The position numbers were made by a program, and so were the translations under genes. The notes under the pieces were generated by a model, which was not told where the DNA came from, ran no database searches, and was given only the letters and a program-made list of their open reading frames with translations. From a virus, in IMG/VR virus record IMGVR_UViG_3300006920_000065, positions 1 through 49,586 of that record: 49,586 bases of DNA; one strand, written 5' to 3'. Shown here piece after piece: positions 15,286 to 21,534 of this stretch (position 1 is its first letter; each line of letters opens with the position of its first letter).

Positions 15286-15303
15286 GAAATATTATCTACC
15301 AGT
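15286..15303 (-). promoter_or_regulatory. ACTGGT element next to the small-terminase start
   Basis: On the minus strand the sequence is ACTGGTAGATAATATTTC, a close match to the phage-wide ACYRGT-W-AAATAWTATTTT element. It ends three bases before the start codon, so it could act on leftward initiation of transcription or translation. A related but weaker copy, ACCAGTTATATATACT, is at 15381-15396. Confidence 0.5.
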
Positions 15304-15666
15304 AGGAGGAGTTTCGTAATGCCCACATTCTGCTATCTAATAAGATGACTTAGATGATGATTTAAATGATGCAATTTTCTACCAGTTATATATACTGTCC
15401 TTAGACCAAATGGATTATGTCTTTAAAAGATTCGCTACCGCCCAAGAGGGTTCTCTAAAGGATTAAAGGTAAAGGTTCTAGAAGTGTTAGAGAGAGATAA
15501 CCATTAAGTGAGACTCTAACAATATCCTACCTTTTGAAAGTGGCTAGTGTGAGAGAGGTTTTCCAAGACTCATAAATTCCAAGTGGAATAAATTGCATCG
15601 ACCTATTTTGATTTTAGGTTCGAGTGAAAGATTAAAGAGGTGCAATTTTGAAACCTTGGAGACAGT
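15304..15666 (+). other. Structured non-coding leader region
   Basis: No plausible gene is seen between the divergent starts at 15283 and 15746. Three folding signals are visible for a plus-strand transcript. TGTTAGAG (15485-15492) pairs with CTCTAACA (15514-15521). AAATTGCA (15590-15597) pairs with TGCAATTT (15641-15648), enclosing an inner ACCTA/TAGGT stem. TTGGAG (15656-15661) pairs with CTCCAA (15668-15673). The last hairpin is mutually exclusive with stem III of the ribozyme that follows. The region is probably the 5' leader of the plus-strand early transcript. Confidence 0.5.
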
Positions 15667-15737
15667 CCTCCAACTGTCTGTGAATTAACACACTGATGAG
15701 AATCCTATTTTGGGGTTCAAGAAACATACCTTGGAGG
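15667..15737 (+). ncRNA. Hammerhead-like ribozyme A, type III, overlapping a ribosome site
   Basis: Order 5' to 3': stem III strand CCTCCAA (15667-15673) and TGT (15675-15677), cleavage triplet GTC ending at 15678, stem I TGTG/CACA with an AATTAA loop (15679-15692), core CTGATGA (15693-15699), stem II GAATCC/GGGTTC (15700-15718), an extra AA, core GAAA (15721-15724), then ACA and TTGGAGG (15731-15737) closing stem III. All core elements are present in the right order. The AA insertion before GAAA and the internal loop in stem III make activity less certain. TTGGAGG is also the Shine-Dalgarno of the gene at 15746. Confidence 0.6.
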
Positions 15738-15745
15738 TATAACTT

Positions 15746-16033
15746 ATGAATAATTATTCAAAACTAAAAGAATTGTCTGAAACTAAAAAAAGAAAACTAT
15801 CTAATAACACCTATCTAATAGTTAGGGAAGATGGCGGTCTTGGAGTCAAACTTCATAATACTGAGGTGGTAATCCATTATCCTAATAAAGTAGTTTTAGA
15901 TAGTGGTGGATGGCAGACAGTCACAACTAAAGCGAGAATGAATGAATATACGAATTTAAAAATCTGTCAAAAAGATTTTGAATGGTTCGTTGATGGTGTT
16001 CCTTTTCACGATGGTATGACAATTCAATATTAA
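15746..16033 (+). CDS. Hypothetical protein, 95 aa
   Basis: The start ATG is 8 bases after GGAGG, which is part of ribozyme A stem III. The protein is basic at the N-terminus (MNNYSKLKELSETKKRKLSN) and then beta-rich (TYLIVREDGGLGVKLHNTEVV, VTTKARMNEYT), ending with FEWFVDGVPFHDGMTIQY. I recognise this as a type of small protein seen in phage accessory clusters, but without a known function. It is the first gene of the rightward cluster and lies between ribozymes A and B, so it would be cut free on its own mRNA. Confidence 0.65.
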   Translation: MNNYSKLKELSETKKRKLSNNTYLIVREDGGLGVKLHNTEVVIHYPNKVVLDSGGWQTVTTKARMNEYTNLKICQKDFEWFVDGVPFHDGMTIQY

Positions 16034-16036
16034 TAA

Positions 16037-16121
16037 ACCAACTGACGATGACCTTTGAGATAAGGTCGAAACTTTAAACCAGTAAGCAGAAATGCTCTGA
16101 CCCTTTCGAGGGAGTCTTGGT
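16037..16121 (+). ncRNA. Hammerhead-type ribozyme B, type I
   Basis: Order: stem I strand ACCAA (16037-16041), core CTGACGA (16042-16048), one extra T, stem II GACCTT/AAGGTC (16050-16067), core GAAA (16068-16071), stem III ACT (16071-16073), a branched insert, AGT (16113-16115), cleavage after C16116 in the triplet GTC, then stem I strand TTGGT (16117-16121). The insert contains AGCA-GAAA-TGCT (16085-16096) and CCCT-TTCG-AGGG (16101-16112), two hairpins with very stable tetraloops. Stem III itself is only three pairs, so folding relies on the branched insert. It lies 75 bases upstream of the MoxR gene. Confidence 0.7.
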
Positions 16122-16125
16122 AGTT

Positions 16126-16142
16126 ACTGGTAAATAATATTT
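16126..16142 (+). promoter_or_regulatory. ACTGGT element upstream of the MoxR gene
   Basis: ACTGGTAAATAATATTT, a close copy of the repeated phage element. It follows ribozyme B by four bases and precedes the MoxR start by 54. If the element is a promoter, the MoxR gene could also be expressed from an mRNA that lacks ribozyme B. Confidence 0.55.
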
Positions 16143-16195
16143 ATTGGTAATTGAAATTAACTTGAATCATTACAAAAAAGATGGAGGTCTTTATT

Positions 16196-17245
16196 ATGAA
16201 ACCAAGTCAAGCATTACTGTCGATTAAGGCAGTTTTAAAAGGGTCTAATACCCCATTCCTTTTAGGAGGAACAGGTATTGGGAAAAGTGCAATTGTTCGA
16301 GCATATGTCGATGACATTGCTGAGGATAGAAAGGTAGTCGTGGATAAGATTAATCCTACTCAAAAAGAGTTTGGATTTATTGATTTCAGACTGTCGTTGT
16401 ATGAGTCTGTTGATTTAGGTGGTTTACCTTATATCAACGATGCGAATGAACAGAAGAGAGCCTTTTTAGGTAATCTTCCAGTGAGTGGTGAGGGTATTTT
16501 ATTCTTCGATGAGTATGCCCAAGCACATAATTCGATACAGGCTATCTGTGGGCAATTGCTGTATGAGGGAAGGATAGGAGACTATTCATTGCCTAAAGGT
16601 TGGAAAGTTATTTGTGCTGGTAATAGGGCAACTGATAGGGCTGGAAGCAACAAGCTACCTAGCCATGTTGTTGGTCGTTGTACCATGATCGATTTCGAGC
16701 ATAGCACTGATGACTGGTTAGCATGGGCAAGTAAGAATGATATCTGTTCTGACATCTTGGGATTTATAAGTTTTCAGCCCGAATTGTTGAATGACTTTGA
16801 CCCCAAGATAACAACTCCGCAACCTAGCCCAAGGTCATGGGCAAGGTTAAGCGATACTCTCAAAATTGACCCTCCAAAAGAAGTTTTGCAATTGATAGTG
16901 CAAGGCGATATTGGAGAGAGAGCATCGATAGAGTTTATGTCATTCCTATCTCTGAAAAATGATGTTCCCAACTTGCAAGATATTTGTGAGGGCAAGGATG
17001 TCGAGGTTGTTGATAGTGGTGGTCTCTGCTATGCAACTGTCTGTGCATTAGTGACTGTTCTTAAAGAAGTAAGCGATGATAAATTGCATGACTACTTTGC
17101 TAATGCCCTTGATTACATTGAGAAATTTCCTACACCCGAATTTGGAATTTTCTTTGTGAGATCGCTTGTTGGAGCAAGAAGCGATATTGTGGATTCTGCA
17201 AGATATGGAGAATTCAAAATCAAGAATCAAGACTTAGAAGTCTAG
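16196..17245 (+). CDS. MoxR-type AAA+ ATPase
   Basis: 349 residues from ATG at 16196, preceded by GGAGG at 16183-16187; an in-frame ATG at 16181 overlaps that ribosome site and is unlikely. Walker A GGTGIGKS is at 24-31, Walker B ILFFDEY with D105-E106, and sensor 1 CAGNRATDRAG with N143. The spacing and the GNR sensor are those of MoxR/CbbQ AAA+ proteins, which remodel targets together with a von Willebrand factor A (VWA) protein. Such a partner is encoded two genes downstream. The likely complex is MoxR ring plus VWA adaptor acting on a metal-dependent or assembly target. The substrate is unknown. Confidence 0.85.
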   Translation: MKPSQALLSIKAVLKGSNTPFLLGGTGIGKSAIVRAYVDDIAEDRKVVVDKINPTQKEFGFIDFRLSLYESVDLGGLPYINDANEQKRAFLGNLPVSGEGILFFDEYAQAHNSIQAICGQLLYEGRIGDYSLPKGWKVICAGNRATDRAGSNKLPSHVVGRCTMIDFEHSTDDWLAWASKNDICSDILGFISFQPELLNDFDPKITTPQPSPRSWARLSDTLKIDPPKEVLQLIVQGDIGERASIEFMSFLSLKNDVPNLQDICEGKDVEVVDSGGLCYATVCALVTVLKEVSDDKLHDYFANALDYIEKFPTPEFGIFFVRSLVGARSDIVDSARYGEFKIKNQDLEV

Positions 17246-17272
17246 GTCTGAGTGAGGGCAGAATTTATATTT

Positions 17273-17290
17273 ACTGGTTAAATATATTTT
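17273..17290 (+). promoter_or_regulatory. ACTGGT element upstream of ribozyme C
   Basis: ACTGGTTAAATATATTTT, with A/T-rich sequence on both sides. It ends six bases before ribozyme C starts. If transcription begins just downstream, the ribozyme would form the very 5' end of the message. Confidence 0.55.
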
Positions 17291-17296
17291 CTGCTC

Positions 17297-17351
17297 TGCT
17301 GTCATGAGTTTTTTTACTCATCTGAGGAGATCAATTAAGATCGAAACAGCA
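17297..17351 (+). ncRNA. Hammerhead ribozyme C, type III, complete core
   Basis: Every element fits. Stem III is TGCTGT (17297-17302) with ACAGCA (17346-17351), six perfect pairs including A15.1-U16.1. The cleavage triplet is GTC with H17 = C17303. Stem I is ATGAGT-TTTTTT-ACTCAT (17304-17321), six perfect pairs. The core CTGAGGA (17322-17328) is the CUGANGA consensus with N = G. Stem II is GATC-AATTAA-GATC (17329-17342), closed by the usual G10.1-C11.1 pair. The core GAAA is at 17343-17346. Cleavage between 17303 and 17304 would leave a 5'-OH end 78 bases before the start codon at 17382. Confidence 0.92.
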
Positions 17352-17381
17352 ACTTTCTTAAAAAGAATGGAGGTTCTTATT

Positions 17382-18365
17382 ATGGAAAAATTAACTAATA
17401 CTCTGTCTGAAAATGCAGTGTTGGTTCGCATGACTGCGAAGCATCCTAGTGGTATCAGAACAGATAAAGCGTTAAAGCGTAATCTAGCAAAAGAAACTGA
17501 GGTTTCTAGTGAAAGATTACTAGGTGTTTCTAAGCACATTTATGGCGAGGATATTAACAAATATTTTCGTTCAATCTTAAATGAGTTTAGGAATAGTTTT
17601 TACTATCCGATGACTTTGCCTTGGGCAGATAATTCTACTGATTGGGATAACAAGGTTGTTAGTGGGTGGCGTTTATGCCCTAACTCTCAACTGGAATCAT
17701 TGCAAAATGCAGTAGATGAAGCCAAGCAAAAATGGGATAAAGAGGTAGATGGATTTTTAAAAGGCTATCCACAAAAAATGGAACAAGCCAAAAGAAATCT
17801 TGGTAAAGCGTTCAATGAATGTGACTATCCAACTTTCGATGAACTTAGATCAAAATTTAGGTTCGATTTCGAGATATCTACTGTTCCCCAATATGGCTCT
17901 GACATTCGTCTGAATGTATCAGAAAAGTTAAGGTCGAAGATAGAAAATGATGTGAAGAATAGACTCAACAATAATATCAAGAATGTCTTGAAAACTACTG
18001 TTGATGCTGTTCTTGAACAGACTGATCACTTAGCGAAAAAATTGAGAGAATATGACCCTAAGCAGAAACAAAAAGGTTTCTTTAATGCTTCCAGTTTTAA
18101 AGCACTGGAAAAATTAACTGGGTCTTTACCAAATATCAATTCTGATATTTTAGGTAATGATCAAGATATCGCTGATGCTCATCAAAAATTGGTTGGCGTT
18201 GTTGCAACTTTCAATGGTTATAACAATGGCATTGACTCTCTGAGAGAGGATGATGCTTTAGCTGATCAAAAGAGAAAAGACTTAGCTGATAAGTTAGAAG
18301 AGTCTGCTGACTCTCTAAAAGGTGGATTCTTGGGAAGAGCCTTTGGAGGGAAAAAAGATGACTAA
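17382..18365 (+). CDS. MoxR/VWA-associated coiled-coil protein (DUF3150-like)
   Basis: 327 residues from ATG at 17382, 8 bases after GGAGG (17369-17373). An upstream in-frame ATG at 17304 falls inside ribozyme C. The protein has an N-terminal conserved-looking part (ENAVLVRMTAKHPSGIRTDK, then YFRSILNEFRNSFYYPMTLPW), a middle helical part with CDYPTFDELRSKFRF, and a long charged C-terminal helix region. Proteins with this TLPW and YP-x-x-x-E-x-x-x-x-F layout sit between MoxR and VWA genes in other phages and have been labelled DUF3150; I make that link from memory. Its last 8 bases overlap the VWA gene, so the two are translationally coupled. Confidence 0.7.
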   Translation: MEKLTNTLSENAVLVRMTAKHPSGIRTDKALKRNLAKETEVSSERLLGVSKHIYGEDINKYFRSILNEFRNSFYYPMTLPWADNSTDWDNKVVSGWRLCPNSQLESLQNAVDEAKQKWDKEVDGFLKGYPQKMEQAKRNLGKAFNECDYPTFDELRSKFRFDFEISTVPQYGSDIRLNVSEKLRSKIENDVKNRLNNNIKNVLKTTVDAVLEQTDHLAKKLREYDPKQKQKGFFNASSFKALEKLTGSLPNINSDILGNDQDIADAHQKLVGVVATFNGYNNGIDSLREDDALADQKRKDLADKLEESADSLKGGFLGRAFGGKKDD

Positions 18366-19776
18366 TTTAGCAACTGTAAATGAGCCACAATTGGCTCACG
18401 ATTACATAGTTAAGGCGAGAGCAAAATTAATGAAAGGTAATGTGGGCATGGCTTCCATGCTCTTACACCTTGATTTAATTGAGGTCGATGAGTCTAAGTG
18501 CGACACAATGGCAACTGATGGGAAAGTAATTTATTACTTTCCTCCTTTTGTCTTGGGTCTAAGCGAAGCTGAACTTCAAGGTGTCTTGGTTCATGAAGCA
18601 TTTCATGTGGTTTATGAACATCCTTTGCGAAGAGGAAAGCGACATCCTAAAGTTTGGAACATAGCGTGTGATTATGTAATCAATGCCTACATATACTGGG
18701 ATTTAAAAATGGAACTTCCTATGGGTGGTTTACTAGATCATAAGTATAAAGGCATGACTGCAGAAAAGGTTTACTCAATCTTGGTAAAAGACGAGGAAGC
18801 CTTGGAAGATGCAATCAATCAGATTAATCAACAAAAACCTAATGGAGAAAACTCTGACGAAGAGCAAGATGCTCAAAGTCAAAGTCAAGGTGGCGATGAA
18901 GAATCTGATGAAGAGGGTACAAGTGACTCTCAATCTGAAGCTGAAGAAATTTCAGATACCAGTCAAGGAAATATTTCTGATGCTGGAACTGGAACAGATT
19001 GGGATGAACTACCCTCTGCAATTGGCGAAGTTTGGGATGCTACTACTGAAGATGGAAATCCTTTAAATGATGCAGAAATGCAAGAATTAAAAGGTGAGAT
19101 TCAACGAGCAATTTCTTTAGCTGATAAGTTAGAGGTTGCTATGAGTAGCAATGGTTCATCTAATGGTCTTGGTTCTGCTGATGCGAATCAAGAAGTAAAA
19201 GTGGATTGGAGAGATCAACTTAATGATCTTTTACAGTCCTCTATTGCTGATGACATTACTTGGGCAAGACCTAATAGGAGACATCAATTTAGAGGTATTA
19301 ATTTACCTAGTAAAGCGAAGTCTCCACAAGGTGGTGAACTAGCCATTGTGATTGATACCAGTGGTTCTGTTTCTCAATATGAACTAGATATGTTCGCAAC
19401 TGAGATACAGGCTATGGCTGAGGATTGTGGTCTTGATAAGATTAGAGTCTGCTATTGCGATACTGTGGTTCGTAAGAATCAACAAGGCGAGTGGTGGGAT
19501 ATCTATGAGTTAGATCAAGGCGAGGACATTCAGCTAACTGTTCGTGGAGGAGGTGGAACTTTATTTGACCCTCCTTTTAACTTGTTCAATGACTTTTCAG
19601 ATGATGTAGACGAGGTACAAGCCATTGTCTATTTCACTGATGGTTGGGGTGAAGTTAGCGAAGAGGTCGAGCCTAATGTTCCAGTCTTTTGGGCAGTCAC
19701 TGAGAAAAGCAGTTATTCAGAAAACCTAGCCTTTGGCGAGGTTGTGTATGTTGATACTGCTGACTTCTATCACTAG
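18358..19776 (+). CDS. Metallopeptidase-like/VWA protein (DUF2201 type)
   Basis: 472 residues from ATG at 18358, 7 bases after GGAGGG. The N-terminal domain has the zincin motif HEAFHVVYEH (HEAFH at 79-83), followed by D105 in NIACDYVIN. A very acidic Ser/Gln/Glu linker spans about 165-205. The C-terminal VWA-like domain has the MIDAS start DTSGS at 333-337, RGGGGT at 396-401 and VYFTDG near 424-429. This is the DUF2201_N plus DUF2201 arrangement that pairs with MoxR ATPases. The VWA part should bind the ATPase or substrate through a divalent metal. The peptidase part may cleave, or may only bind metal. It is uncommon cargo for a phage this size. Confidence 0.85.
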   Translation: MTNLATVNEPQLAHDYIVKARAKLMKGNVGMASMLLHLDLIEVDESKCDTMATDGKVIYYFPPFVLGLSEAELQGVLVHEAFHVVYEHPLRRGKRHPKVWNIACDYVINAYIYWDLKMELPMGGLLDHKYKGMTAEKVYSILVKDEEALEDAINQINQQKPNGENSDEEQDAQSQSQGGDEESDEEGTSDSQSEAEEISDTSQGNISDAGTGTDWDELPSAIGEVWDATTEDGNPLNDAEMQELKGEIQRAISLADKLEVAMSSNGSSNGLGSADANQEVKVDWRDQLNDLLQSSIADDITWARPNRRHQFRGINLPSKAKSPQGGELAIVIDTSGSVSQYELDMFATEIQAMAEDCGLDKIRVCYCDTVVRKNQQGEWWDIYELDQGEDIQLTVRGGGGTLFDPPFNLFNDFSDDVDEVQAIVYFTDGWGEVSEEVEPNVPVFWAVTEKSSYSENLAFGEVVYVDTADFYH

Positions 19777-19786
19777 AAGCGATTTA

Positions 19787-19830
19787 AGAGGAGGGTGTTT
19801 TGAGGGTCACTAGACCCTTGACCCTCCTCT
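19787..19830 (+). ncRNA. Long two-part hairpin after the VWA gene
   Basis: AGAGGAGGGT (19787-19796) pairs perfectly with ACCCTCCTCT (19821-19830). Inside it AGGGTC (19803-19808) pairs with GACCCT (19813-19818) around ACTA. No T run follows, so it is not an ordinary terminator. It could protect the 3' end of the VWA message after ribozyme D cuts 50 bases downstream. Confidence 0.6.
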
Positions 19831-19872
19831 GATTCGTTCTCTATGGCGATCTCACGAAGCTGATTTTGACAA

Positions 19873-19965
19873 TTTCTGTCTGAAAATGTGTATTTTCACT
19901 GATGACCACGAAAGTGGCACTTATCTATTTATAGGTAGGTGGACTCAAAAGAGTCGAAACAGAAA
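19873..19965 (+). ncRNA. Hammerhead-type ribozyme D, type III with three-hairpin stem II
   Basis: Stem III is TTTCTGT (19873-19879) with ACAGAAA (19959-19965), seven perfect pairs. The triplet is GTC with cleavage after C19880. Stem I is TGAAAAT-GTGT-ATTTTCA (19881-19898), seven perfect pairs. The core CTGATGA is at 19899-19905 and core GAAA at 19956-19959. Where stem II should be there are three hairpins with no unpaired base between them: CCAC-GAAA-GTGG (19906-19917), a ten-pair stem closed by TTTA (19918-19941), and GACTC-AAAA-GAGTC (19942-19955). The last one supplies the usual G10.1-C11.1 pair. The inserted 36 bases are unlike any hammerhead I know. Confidence 0.8.
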
Positions 19966-19998
19966 CTTAAACTTATTCTATTACTTTGGAGGTAAATT

Positions 19999-20172
19999 AT
20001 GAATAAAGATATAGAGAAAGTCTTTTCAGAAATGAAAAGCAAGTATGGGATAACTGGTAAAACTCCTATTGGAGATTTGCCATTTATGATGACCAAGGCT
20101 GATTGGTTAGTCTTTTCTTGTTTCTTAAAATATCCTAATGGTGTTTTAAAAAATAGAGAGGTGAAATCATGA
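19999..20172 (+). CDS. Small hypothetical protein, 57 aa
   Basis: ATG at 19999 follows TTGGAGG with 7 bases between. The product begins MNKDIEKVFSEMKSKYG and ends LKYPNGVLKNREVKS. It is the first gene after ribozyme D and ends in an ATGA overlap with the next gene. The last coding bases, GAGGTGAAATCATGAGT, recur at the end of the next gene (20340-20356). No domain recognised; the length and charge suggest a small host-acting or regulatory protein, but that is a guess. Confidence 0.65.
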   Translation: MNKDIEKVFSEMKSKYGITGKTPIGDLPFMMTKADWLVFSCFLKYPNGVLKNREVKS

Positions 20173-20354
20173 GTGATCTAGTCCAATATAATCATAGACC
20201 TAACCCCAAATGTAGGGATGAGGTTTTGATTACAGTCGAGCATGGCTATCATTATCGAGAGGTAATGAGGAAGTGTGGACAGACAGCTACAGATGGAGGT
20301 CGAATCCTTTGTAATAAATGCTGTAAGTCATACGATAGCGAGGTGAAATCATGA
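20169..20354 (+). CDS. Small Cys-containing protein, 61 aa
   Basis: It begins MSDLVQYNHRPNPKCRDE and contains ILCNKCCKSY near the C-terminus, with single Cys residues at about 15 and 36. Together these could make a zinc ribbon (C...C...CxxC). Its start overlaps the previous stop (ATGA), and its end again carries the duplicated GAGGTGAAATCATGAGT junction that starts the next gene. Function unknown. Confidence 0.6.
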   Translation: MSDLVQYNHRPNPKCRDEVLITVEHGYHYREVMRKCGQTATDGGRILCNKCCKSYDSEVKS

Positions 20355-20608
20355 GTAAGCCTTGGGAAAAGTATTGTTATGGCACAAGTAAACAGCCTTA
20401 TTATGGTTGTTGTGAAAGCAATAGAAATGAAGAGGGAAAACCTTTGCATGAAATGTCTCGATGCGATGATGCTGAGGGAGATTTCGTTGCTCATTTTTGT
20501 GAAAAGTGCGAGGACAAAACTCTAGGAAAGTATGAGCCTAGAATTTGGTCAAGCAATCATAGACCCTTTGATCAATATGGAGGTGAATGTATAGACGATT
20601 GGGTTTAA
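20351..20608 (+). CDS. Cys-rich hypothetical protein, 85 aa
   Basis: Cysteine-rich: YGCCESN, MSRCDD, FCEKCED and a late GGECIDDW. It may bind zinc through the CxxC and upstream Cys residues. It begins MSKPWEKYCYGTSKQPYYG. It is the last gene before the strong terminator at 20622-20664. Partial similarity in sequence start and junction with the gene before it (both begin MS after EVKS) suggests the junction was copied. Function unknown. Confidence 0.6.
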   Translation: MSKPWEKYCYGTSKQPYYGCCESNRNEEGKPLHEMSRCDDAEGDFVAHFCEKCEDKTLGKYEPRIWSSNHRPFDQYGGECIDDWV

Positions 20609-20621
20609 TCCTAAAATAAAT

Positions 20622-20664
20622 AAGGCGGTAGCTACTTTAATTAGTAGCTACCGCCTTTTTTTTT
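20622..20664 (+). terminator. Strong intrinsic terminator of the ribozyme/MoxR cluster
   Basis: AAGGCGGTAGCTACT (20622-20636) pairs perfectly with AGTAGCTACCGCCTT (20643-20657) around TTAATT. It is followed by a T run to 20664. A 15-pair stem plus nine T is an unusually strong terminator. It closes the rightward unit that starts near 15.3 kb. Confidence 0.95.
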
Positions 20665-20720
20665 GGCTCAAAATAAGGTGTTTCAAGGGCATCAAAGAGC
20701 TGTGTTTTGCGTACAGGGAG

Positions 20721-20888
20721 AATAATATTTACTGGTATATAGAATTTACTGGTTTTGCGAGAGGGTGGGGTATGTGTGCGTTCAGATTCTCATCAGGTGA
20801 TAAAAAAAAATATATTTGACCAGTATTCGGCTGTGGATAACTCTGTGGATAAACTGTAGATAAGTCTTGCAATCTGCAATCACCTGAT
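20721..20888. other. Candidate replication origin
   Basis: Two perfect DnaA boxes, TGTGGATAA at 20832-20840 and 20844-20852, are followed by a one-mismatch copy TGTAGATAA at 20855-20863. These are direct repeats at 12 and 11 base spacing. To their left is an A/T tract (20802-20818). A perfect ten-base inverted repeat, ATCAGGTGAT (20792-20801) and ATCACCTGAT (20879-20888), brackets the set. Three ACTGGT elements (20731, 20748 and, inverted, 20819-20824) also lie here. The phage encodes a primase-helicase but no visible polymerase, so use of host DnaA and host polymerase is plausible. Confidence 0.7.
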
Positions 20889-20940
20889 ATATATTGATTG
20901 ACATAAGATTCATTTCTTAACCAATCACTTCATAAGAGTG

Positions 20941-21003
20941 AGACCTCCAAGTCTATAAGTTAGATGGGAAAGGGTAGATAGCAATATCTACCCTTTTTTT
21001 TTG
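20941..21003 (+). ncRNA. Possible small RNA ending in an intrinsic terminator
   Basis: AGAC-CTCCAA-GTCT (20941-20954) would display an anti-Shine-Dalgarno loop; ACCTCCAAG (20943-20951) is the exact complement of CTTGGAGGT at 15730-15738. It is followed by a terminator: AAAGGGTAGATA/TATCTACCCTTT (20969-20980 with 20985-20996) with a GCAA loop and T run to 21002. No gene lies between this and the terminator at 20664, so a separate transcript must be what it ends. A TTGACA lies at 20898-20903, but I see no good -10. The 5' end is not defined. Confidence 0.45.
20969..21003 (+). terminator. Intrinsic terminator with GNRA loop
   Basis: The 12-pair stem 20969-20980/20985-20996, GCAA loop and T-rich tail to 21002 make this a confident terminator. 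It lies 300 bases past the previous terminator with no gene between them. Confidence 0.9.
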
Positions 21004-21033
21004 GCAGTGAGTGATAGTCCATTGGTATTATTG

Positions 21034-21076
21034 TTTGTATTGTTTGTAGTGTTTGTATTGGTGTTGGTGTTTGTTG
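21034..21076. repeat. G/T-only tandem repeat (9-base unit)
   Basis: TTTGTATTG (21034-21042), TTTGTAGTG (21043-21051) and TTTGTATTG (21052-21060) are tandem. They are followed by the degenerate GTGTTGGTG and TTTGTTG. The top strand from 21023 to 21080 has no C. Such strand-biased runs are found near origins and may act as an unwound or primase-loading region. Confidence 0.6.
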
Positions 21077-21085
21077 TTTTCCCAG

Positions 21086-21104
21086 ACTGGTAAATAATAT
21101 TTTT
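21086..21104 (+). promoter_or_regulatory. ACTGGT element upstream of the 21181 gene
   Basis: ACTGGTAAATAATATTTTT, a near-perfect copy of the repeated element, lies 77 bases before the start of the next rightward gene. It is followed by TTCCACATGGAA (21130-21141), itself a 12-base perfect palindrome. It may be the promoter or operator for the two-gene unit 21181-21742. Confidence 0.5.
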
Positions 21105-21180
21105 TAGCAGGATACAACACGATCCTGTGTTCCACATGGAACAGCTTTCAATTTGATTGCATTTCACTTAGAATATAGAG

Positions 21181-21534
21181 ATGTTTGCAGTTATTAGACA
21201 CACTTATAAGTTAGATATTCCTGACCCAACCAATCCCAACAGTACCCAAAGCAGTGCTAAGTGGAAGCACTTGGTATGGATATTTGAAACTGAGATAGAT
21301 GCTTTGGCTTTTGCCATTACATTATTGGATGACCCATTGATTACTTCTAATAGATGGCTTATCAAATCAGCCATACACCAACTTGAAACCGATAGATACT
21401 ATCAAGTAGGCAGAGAAAGTGTTGCCATTGCAGAAGTACAGGATGCTCCTGAGATTGTCTTTACTGACGATAATATTGAAAATGCATTAGATGAAATAAT
21501 AGAGGAAAAAAATCATGAAGAGCCTATTCATTAG
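21181..21534 (+). CDS. Hypothetical protein, 117 aa
   Basis: It begins MFAVIRHTYKLDIPDPTNPN, then WKHLVWIFETEIDALAFAITLLDD, and ends in an acidic tail (DDNIENALDEIIEEKNHEEP). Helix-strand layout, no Cys pairs, no membrane segment. It overlaps the Arc-like gene by 20 bases and so forms a two-gene unit with it. Its start has only a weak ribosome site. It may be a partner or antagonist of the Arc-like regulator; there is no direct sign of function. Confidence 0.6.
   Translation: MFAVIRHTYKLDIPDPTNPNSTQSSAKWKHLVWIFETEIDALAFAITLLDDPLITSNRWLIKSAIHQLETDRYYQVGRESVAIAEVQDAPEIVFTDDNIENALDEIIEEKNHEEPIH

Follow-up and report, generated by a model that had tools for sequence, protein, structure and literature searches.

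The early transcript of phage T7 is a polycistron that host RNase III cuts between the genes, which gives mRNAs with structured ends. For self-cleaving RNA, Perreault et al. described hammerheads clustered around prophage genes in 2011 and proposed processing into gene-length mRNAs; tandem hammerhead arrays cleave both in vitro and in vivo (PMC3088659). Here we analysed a virus record of 49,586 bases, IMGVR_UViG_3300006920_000065 (this whole stretch is called the window), which comes from an uncultured phage, probably a marine one. In its MoxR/VWA unit four elements, HHR1 to HHR4, follow each other in series; that they are hammerhead ribozymes, predicted to be self-cleaving, is strongly supported by comparison with related viruses. 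The best reading of the array, which we consider probable, is RNA-only processing of a polycistron at its junctions into messages with structured ends.

Genes of a phage transcript are flanked by at least two hammerheads in series on one strand, as in the arrays of Perreault et al. In those arrays the set of flanked genes varies, whereas here a single operon is retained across a large virus family, most of its junctions are filled and the hammerhead type is tied to position. The elements share the core, the three helices and the NUH cleavage site with hammerhead types I and III (Rfam RF00163 and RF00008), but the present family has recurrent core variants and inserts. The proposed outcome resembles that of RNase III processing in T7, except that a host protein enzyme acts in T7 and ribozymes in cis would act here. 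Theta ribozymes, which are hepatitis delta virus (HDV)-like, are also self-cleaving RNAs in transcripts of gut phages, but they have another fold, are tied to tRNAs and recoding, and form no serial operon array (PMC10879173). N4-like phages (gp24/gp25) and cyanophages likewise have a MoxR ATPase beside or near a VWA protein, but no hammerheads were found in the four regions examined. The initial annotation of the window held that no phage operon organised in this way was known. This was too strong, since clustered phage hammerheads were published with the same suggestion in 2011 (PMC3088659). The processing principle has thus been known since then; the family-wide array, the rule relating type to position and an anti-Shine-Dalgarno hairpin at HHR1 appear to be new, and no paper on this virus family, the rule or the hairpin was found in the open-licence literature.

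Hammerhead elements of the MoxR/VWA unit

The hammerhead core and three helices are present in all four gaps on the plus strand of the window, exactly where the initial annotation had placed them. Each element has the conserved core CUGANGA ... GAAA and an NUH cleavage triplet.

15667..15737, plus strand: HHR1, type III variant; predicted cut after 15678; loop I GAAUUAAC; AA inserted before GAAA
16037..16121, plus strand: HHR2, type I; predicted cut after C16116; starts 3 nucleotides (nt) past the stop codon of gene A
17297..17351, plus strand: HHR3, canonical type III; predicted cut after C17303
19873..19965, plus strand: HHR4, type III with an insert at A9/10.1; predicted cut after 19880
19906..19941, plus strand: insert of HHR4; 36 nt, two hairpins, between A9 and stem II

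HHR3 matches the textbook form of type III, with the sequence GCUGUC/AUGAGU (cut between the two)...ACUCAU CUGAGGA GAUC...GAUC GAAACAGC. Stems III and I have 6 base pairs (bp) each, the core lies at 17322-17328, stem II has 4 bp, and the minimum free energy fold is exactly the hammerhead. In HHR1 the GUC triplet ends at 15678 and is followed by stem I (UGUG/CACA, 15679-15682/15689-15692), the core CUGAUGA (15693-15699), stem II (GAAUCC/GGGUUC), an extra AA (15719-15720) and GAAA (15721-15724). Its distal stem III is formed by CCUCCAA (15667-15673) and UUGGAGG (15731-15737), the latter being the Shine-Dalgarno sequence. HHR2, which lies 74 nt ahead of the MoxR start, consists of stem I (ACCAA/UUGGU), the core (16042-16048), an extra U16049 after A9, a stem II of 6 bp, GAAA and a branched stem III, whose domain of UUAAAC, a bulged hairpin and a CCC/GGG hairpin is kept in distant relatives. 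HHR4 has stems III and I of 7 bp each, the core at 19899-19905 and stem II at 19942-19946/19951-19955; its minimum free energy fold is the hammerhead junction with two additional hairpins (z -4.95). Insertions at the stem II junction are found in HHR1, HHR2 and HHR4.

The insert of HHR4 is unchanged in the related contig L029, though the flanking stems I and II show compensatory changes; other relatives have a single U at this position, or nothing. The identical insert of 36 nt with two hairpins was seen in L001, L002, L004 and L010/L029 despite differing stems of the surrounding ribozyme. It looks either recently exchanged or strongly constrained.

The elements were scored with a hammerhead descriptor (threshold at least 11), using 60 dinucleotide-shuffled windows as a control. 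HHR1, HHR2 and HHR3 scored 11, 14 and 16, and shuffled windows gave 0.07 matches per strand at this threshold. HHR4 was matched once a long insert was permitted, and the minus strand of the window gave no match. A looser scan added two matches, one within the VWA gene and the other on the minus strand; both were rejected, as shuffled windows average 1.1.

The genes of the unit are as follows.

15746..16033, plus strand: gene A, 95 amino acids (aa), Kyano_Gp96-like (PF23790, E 1.4e-8); stop codon at 16031-16033
16196..17245, plus strand: MoxR-type AAA ATPase, 349 aa (phrog_1297, E 7.6e-68)
17382..18365, plus strand: third gene, 327 aa, distantly related to a DUF3150 protein (23.5% identity, E 1e-9)
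18358..19776, plus strand: DUF2201 putative metallopeptidase/VWA protein, 472 aa (PF13203, E 1.9e-33; PF09967, E 2.1e-14)
19999-20172, 20169-20354 and 20351-20608, plus strand: three small overlapping genes without ribozymes between them
20623..20665, plus strand: terminator of the Rho-independent type that closes the unit, GGCGGTAGCTAC...GTAGCTACCGCC and then a run of T

Occurrence and position in related viruses

Relatives were gathered by a scan with the MoxR protein and then with a MoxR profile; the viral contigs obtained had identities as low as 50%. Over 738 kb of these contigs the descriptor matched 249 times on the operon strand and 0 times on the opposite strand; most relatives have 3-7 hammerheads in the MoxR/VWA operon, and the window has 4. 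Helix sequences differ widely among the relatives while pairing is retained. Covariation was counted at outer pairs that the descriptor does not demand, leaving out a match in a coding region of L058/L059. Pair 4 of stem I was paired in 70/70 type III elements (shuffled mean 52), and pairs 3-5 of stem III in 70, 63 and 58 of the 70 (39, 40 and 31 with shuffled partners). For type I, pairs 3-5 of stem III were paired in 56, 56 and 55 of 56 elements, compared with 31, 28 and 31 with shuffled partners. By the descriptor the A15.1-U16.1 pair is present in 70/70 type III and 56/56 type I elements. Loop sequences are kept within classes: GUGU occurs with AAAA, and type I has UGAAAU. The assignment of the four elements as hammerheads follows from the core, helices, compensatory changes, strand bias and fixed junction position seen in these relatives; the conservation in related phages for which the initial annotation had asked was thus borne out.

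The association with this operon is close. When the type I DNA pattern alone was used as a query, mostly MoxR/third gene/VWA operons were returned, some only ~35% alike, and in five genomes of 57-60 kb the strong matches were confined to the MoxR/VWA operon, with a few scattered matches of score 11-13 at chance level. A DNA search of INPHARED gave no relative, nor did a scan of bacterial and archaeal genomes with the MoxR profile. Type I hammerheads were also observed in L132 (1447-3724, four in a row), L109 and L120 (3145); no MoxR gene was detected on these contigs, which are either cut contigs or members of other virus groups.

The layout was counted in 83 distinct operons. A hammerhead was present in 256/278 gaps of 60-250 nt and in 0/110 gaps shorter than 30 nt. 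Of the gaps that seemed empty at first pass, most of those inspected contained missed variants (CUGAANGA, CUGACGU, or a stem II with an internal loop) or resulted from errors in gene calling. In the window the VWA gene (18358) overlaps the third gene (17382), and this junction is free of ribozymes, in agreement with the initial annotation; in L143, L160 and L165 the two genes are separated by a gap and a ribozyme lies in between.

The distance from the 5' edge of type I elements to the upstream stop codon has a median of 0 nt (65/71 within -30..+10), and in some the stop codon lies inside the ribozyme. From the 3' edge of type III elements to the downstream start the median is 29 nt, 77/80 being within 40 nt. 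Type I elements are trailers that start at the upstream stop codon and type III elements are leaders. The earlier view of one hammerhead per leader therefore holds for type III; the type I element HHR2 is joined to the end of gene A and is a trailer of that gene as much as a leader of MoxR.

Separate stem-loops also lie at the junctions. Type III elements have a strong stem-loop in front, in most cases with 0-3 nt between its end and the ribozyme; its z has a median of -4.3 and is below -2 in 92% (n=59); for other intergenic gaps the median z was -1.5, with 43% below -2 (n=21). Spacers downstream of type I elements often contain a hairpin (median fold z -2.4). In the window these structures are:

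16126..16157, plus strand: palindrome-like element ACTGGTAAATAATATTTATTGGT just past the HHR2 cut; hairpin candidate for the 5' end of the MoxR message
17246..17296, plus strand: spacer from the MoxR stop to HHR3 with the long stem-loop GGGCAGAAUUUAUAUUUA...UAAAUAUAUUUUCUGCUC (-16.5 kcal/mol); candidate 3' end structure
19786..19831, plus strand: stem-loop rich in G+C, downstream of the VWA gene; candidate 3' end structure

The HHR1 class comprises elements that have GAAUUAAC as loop I and an AA ahead of GAAA. In the window, HHR1 is accompanied by a further hairpin.

15661..15678, plus strand: hairpin GACAGU-CCUCCA-ACUGUC; the 3' arm ends at the HHR1 cleavage nucleotide and the loop is complementary to the Shine-Dalgarno sequence

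A hairpin of at least 4 bp whose end coincides with the cleavage site and whose loop shows CUCC, the arms differing in sequence, was found in 46/54 relatives of the HHR1 class and in 0/74 other type III elements. This upstream hairpin and stem III of the ribozyme are mutually exclusive, which suggests, at the level of predicted folds, a switch. The predicted exposure of the Shine-Dalgarno sequence rises modestly on cleavage, from a class median of 0.52 to 0.67 and, in the window, from 0.47 to 0.53; strong unmasking by HHR1 cleavage was for this reason rejected, and the switch was not made the main claim.

Variants that recur in relatives are AA before GAAA, CUGAANGA, CUGACGU, U-U at 10.1/11.1, and inserts at A9/10.1 and in stem III. 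Upstream of MoxR, L042, L044, L046, L075 and L082 have a conserved type I form in which core position 9, normally A, is U (CUGACGU), which amounts to a natural experiment on this position. L060 and L065 have, in the gap from MoxR to the third gene, a type I element whose stem III holds a conserved, structured insert well in excess of 100 nt, for which no Rfam match was found.

Two further observations concern the surrounding DNA. The dispersed element ACTGGT-N-AATATATTTT or ACTGGTAAATAATATTT is present in about 12 copies in the 15.3-30.5 kb half of the window and is possibly a phage promoter or operator; in L034 and L038 it serves as stem III of a type I hammerhead, and in L085 as part of stem II.

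15298(-), 16126, 17273, 20731, 20819(-), 21086, 21933, 23564, 25652(-), 27785(-), 29466(-), 30501(-): copies of the dispersed ACTGGT element, (-) marking the minus strand

At 20825-20860, paired DnaA-box-like TTATCCACA repeats adjoin two terminators and a GT-rich repeat stretch (21020-21080). This region is a possible replication origin.

Proposed processing of the transcript and alternative readings

In the processing that we consider best supported, the polycistronic RNA would cut itself at every ribozyme junction, giving separate mRNAs without an enzyme. After a type I cut the folded ribozyme would stay with the upstream message, at its 3' end, and a separate hairpin would open the downstream message. 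After a type III cut it is the downstream message that would keep the folded ribozyme, at its 5'-OH end, the preceding message being closed by the separate upstream hairpin. Cleavage by HHR1, which stands first in the unit, would shorten the leader, and it may expose the Shine-Dalgarno sequence as well. Each gene or block of overlapping genes would in this way yield a message that tends to be structured at both ends, and each would therefore have its own RNA stability. The layout and the hairpin folds do predict structure on both sides of the predicted cuts. Of the initial annotation's proposal that a serial set cuts the message into units, the serial arrangement is strongly supported by the relatives, while the cutting is the most plausible interpretation of these sequences.

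Several points weigh against this interpretation. A single transcript across the unit is an assumption, promoters between the genes being possible, and the gene calls of the relatives were automatic. The core setting is canonical only in HHR3. The other three have extra nucleotides, namely AA ahead of GAAA in HHR1, a U following A9 in HHR2 and 36 nt following A9 in HHR4, and published tests found lower activity with insertions in the core region (PMC3088659). The same study reported U10.1-U11.1 mismatches as well as an insertion after A6 (PMC3088659); the present family shows both. In four cultured phages (MinM2, S-TIM5, G7C and Vibrio 1.238) no hammerheads were found near MoxR, so ribozymes are not required for MoxR-type proteins. 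Comparison with the Rfam hammerhead models, proposed as a check in the initial annotation, gave no match at the gathering cut-off in the window or in 11 relatives, and none in a permissive scan of 15300-21500. This was not taken as disproof, because RF00008 matches several relatives just under the cut-off (best 47.5 bits where 48.5 are needed, E 1.7e-11); the cut-off is strict, and is set by the database, not by biochemistry.

The position of the elements bears on a different reading, possible though rather unlikely, in which they are regulators gated by translation instead of constant processors, and self-cleavage would be limited to messages that are poorly translated. A ribosome at the stop codon would cover a stem I strand of type I, which starts at or overlaps that codon, and a 30S subunit on the Shine-Dalgarno sequence would break stem III of the HHR1 class, whose two exclusive folds are conserved together with the hairpin at the cleavage site. 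The modest change in exposure speaks against gating, as does the distance of most type III elements, which end ~29 nt before the start; the usual 30S footprint would not reach that far ahead. That ribosomes at stop codons (type I) and at Shine-Dalgarno sequences (HHR1 class) decide which junctions are cut is put forward as an unlikely, tentative idea.

Control by a ligand or protein, as in an aptazyme, with a signal sensed by the HHR4 insert or by the branched domain in stem III of HHR2, seems improbable. In distant relatives the HHR2 domain keeps UUAAA, the bulged hairpin and the second hairpin, with double-sided changes in 5/7 predicted pairs, and the HHR4 insert is identical in L029 next to covarying stems. 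However, Rfam revealed no known aptamer family in the window or in the permissive scan, the conserved parts may merely fold the ribozyme, and the insert is missing from many relatives.

The gene content between ribozymes varies (the window (W), L025, L029, L033), and the added gene of L025 and the extra genes of L029 bring their own ribozyme, as would be expected if the junctions were mainly conserved DNA seams for the exchange of small gene cassettes and cutting a by-product. The helices diverge with pairing kept, which indicates selection on RNA structure and not on DNA identity, and makes this reading quite improbable.

Since single genes are flanked by hammerheads in series, cleavage and religation of neighbouring ribozymes might also produce circular RNAs, as in retrozymes, or serve RNA recombination. 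Hammerhead-bearing circular RNAs are known elsewhere (PMC7761336 and PMC4918200), but neighbouring elements here often differ in type and sequence, and Perreault et al. looked for circular products in bacterial arrays and found none (PMC3088659); we regard this as very improbable.

Chance or relic motifs without catalytic function, which the core insertions in 3/4 elements and the lack of an Rfam match at cut-off could suggest, are hardly credible in view of the strand bias of 249 to 0, the junction occupancy and the compensatory changes; for the family this is already contradicted, and it could apply to single copies such as HHR4.

The role of bacterial and phage hammerheads has been unclear since many were found in 2011. 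This virus family keeps a hammerhead at nearly every non-overlapping junction of one operon, in the circular permutation that matches the gene end it would protect, and its natural variants, well over a hundred and some with odd cores, lend themselves to activity tests. The array gives a concrete candidate function, enzyme-free maturation of mRNA. If the array were coupled to translation, the translation of each gene would set the release and lifetime of its own message, with no protein regulator.

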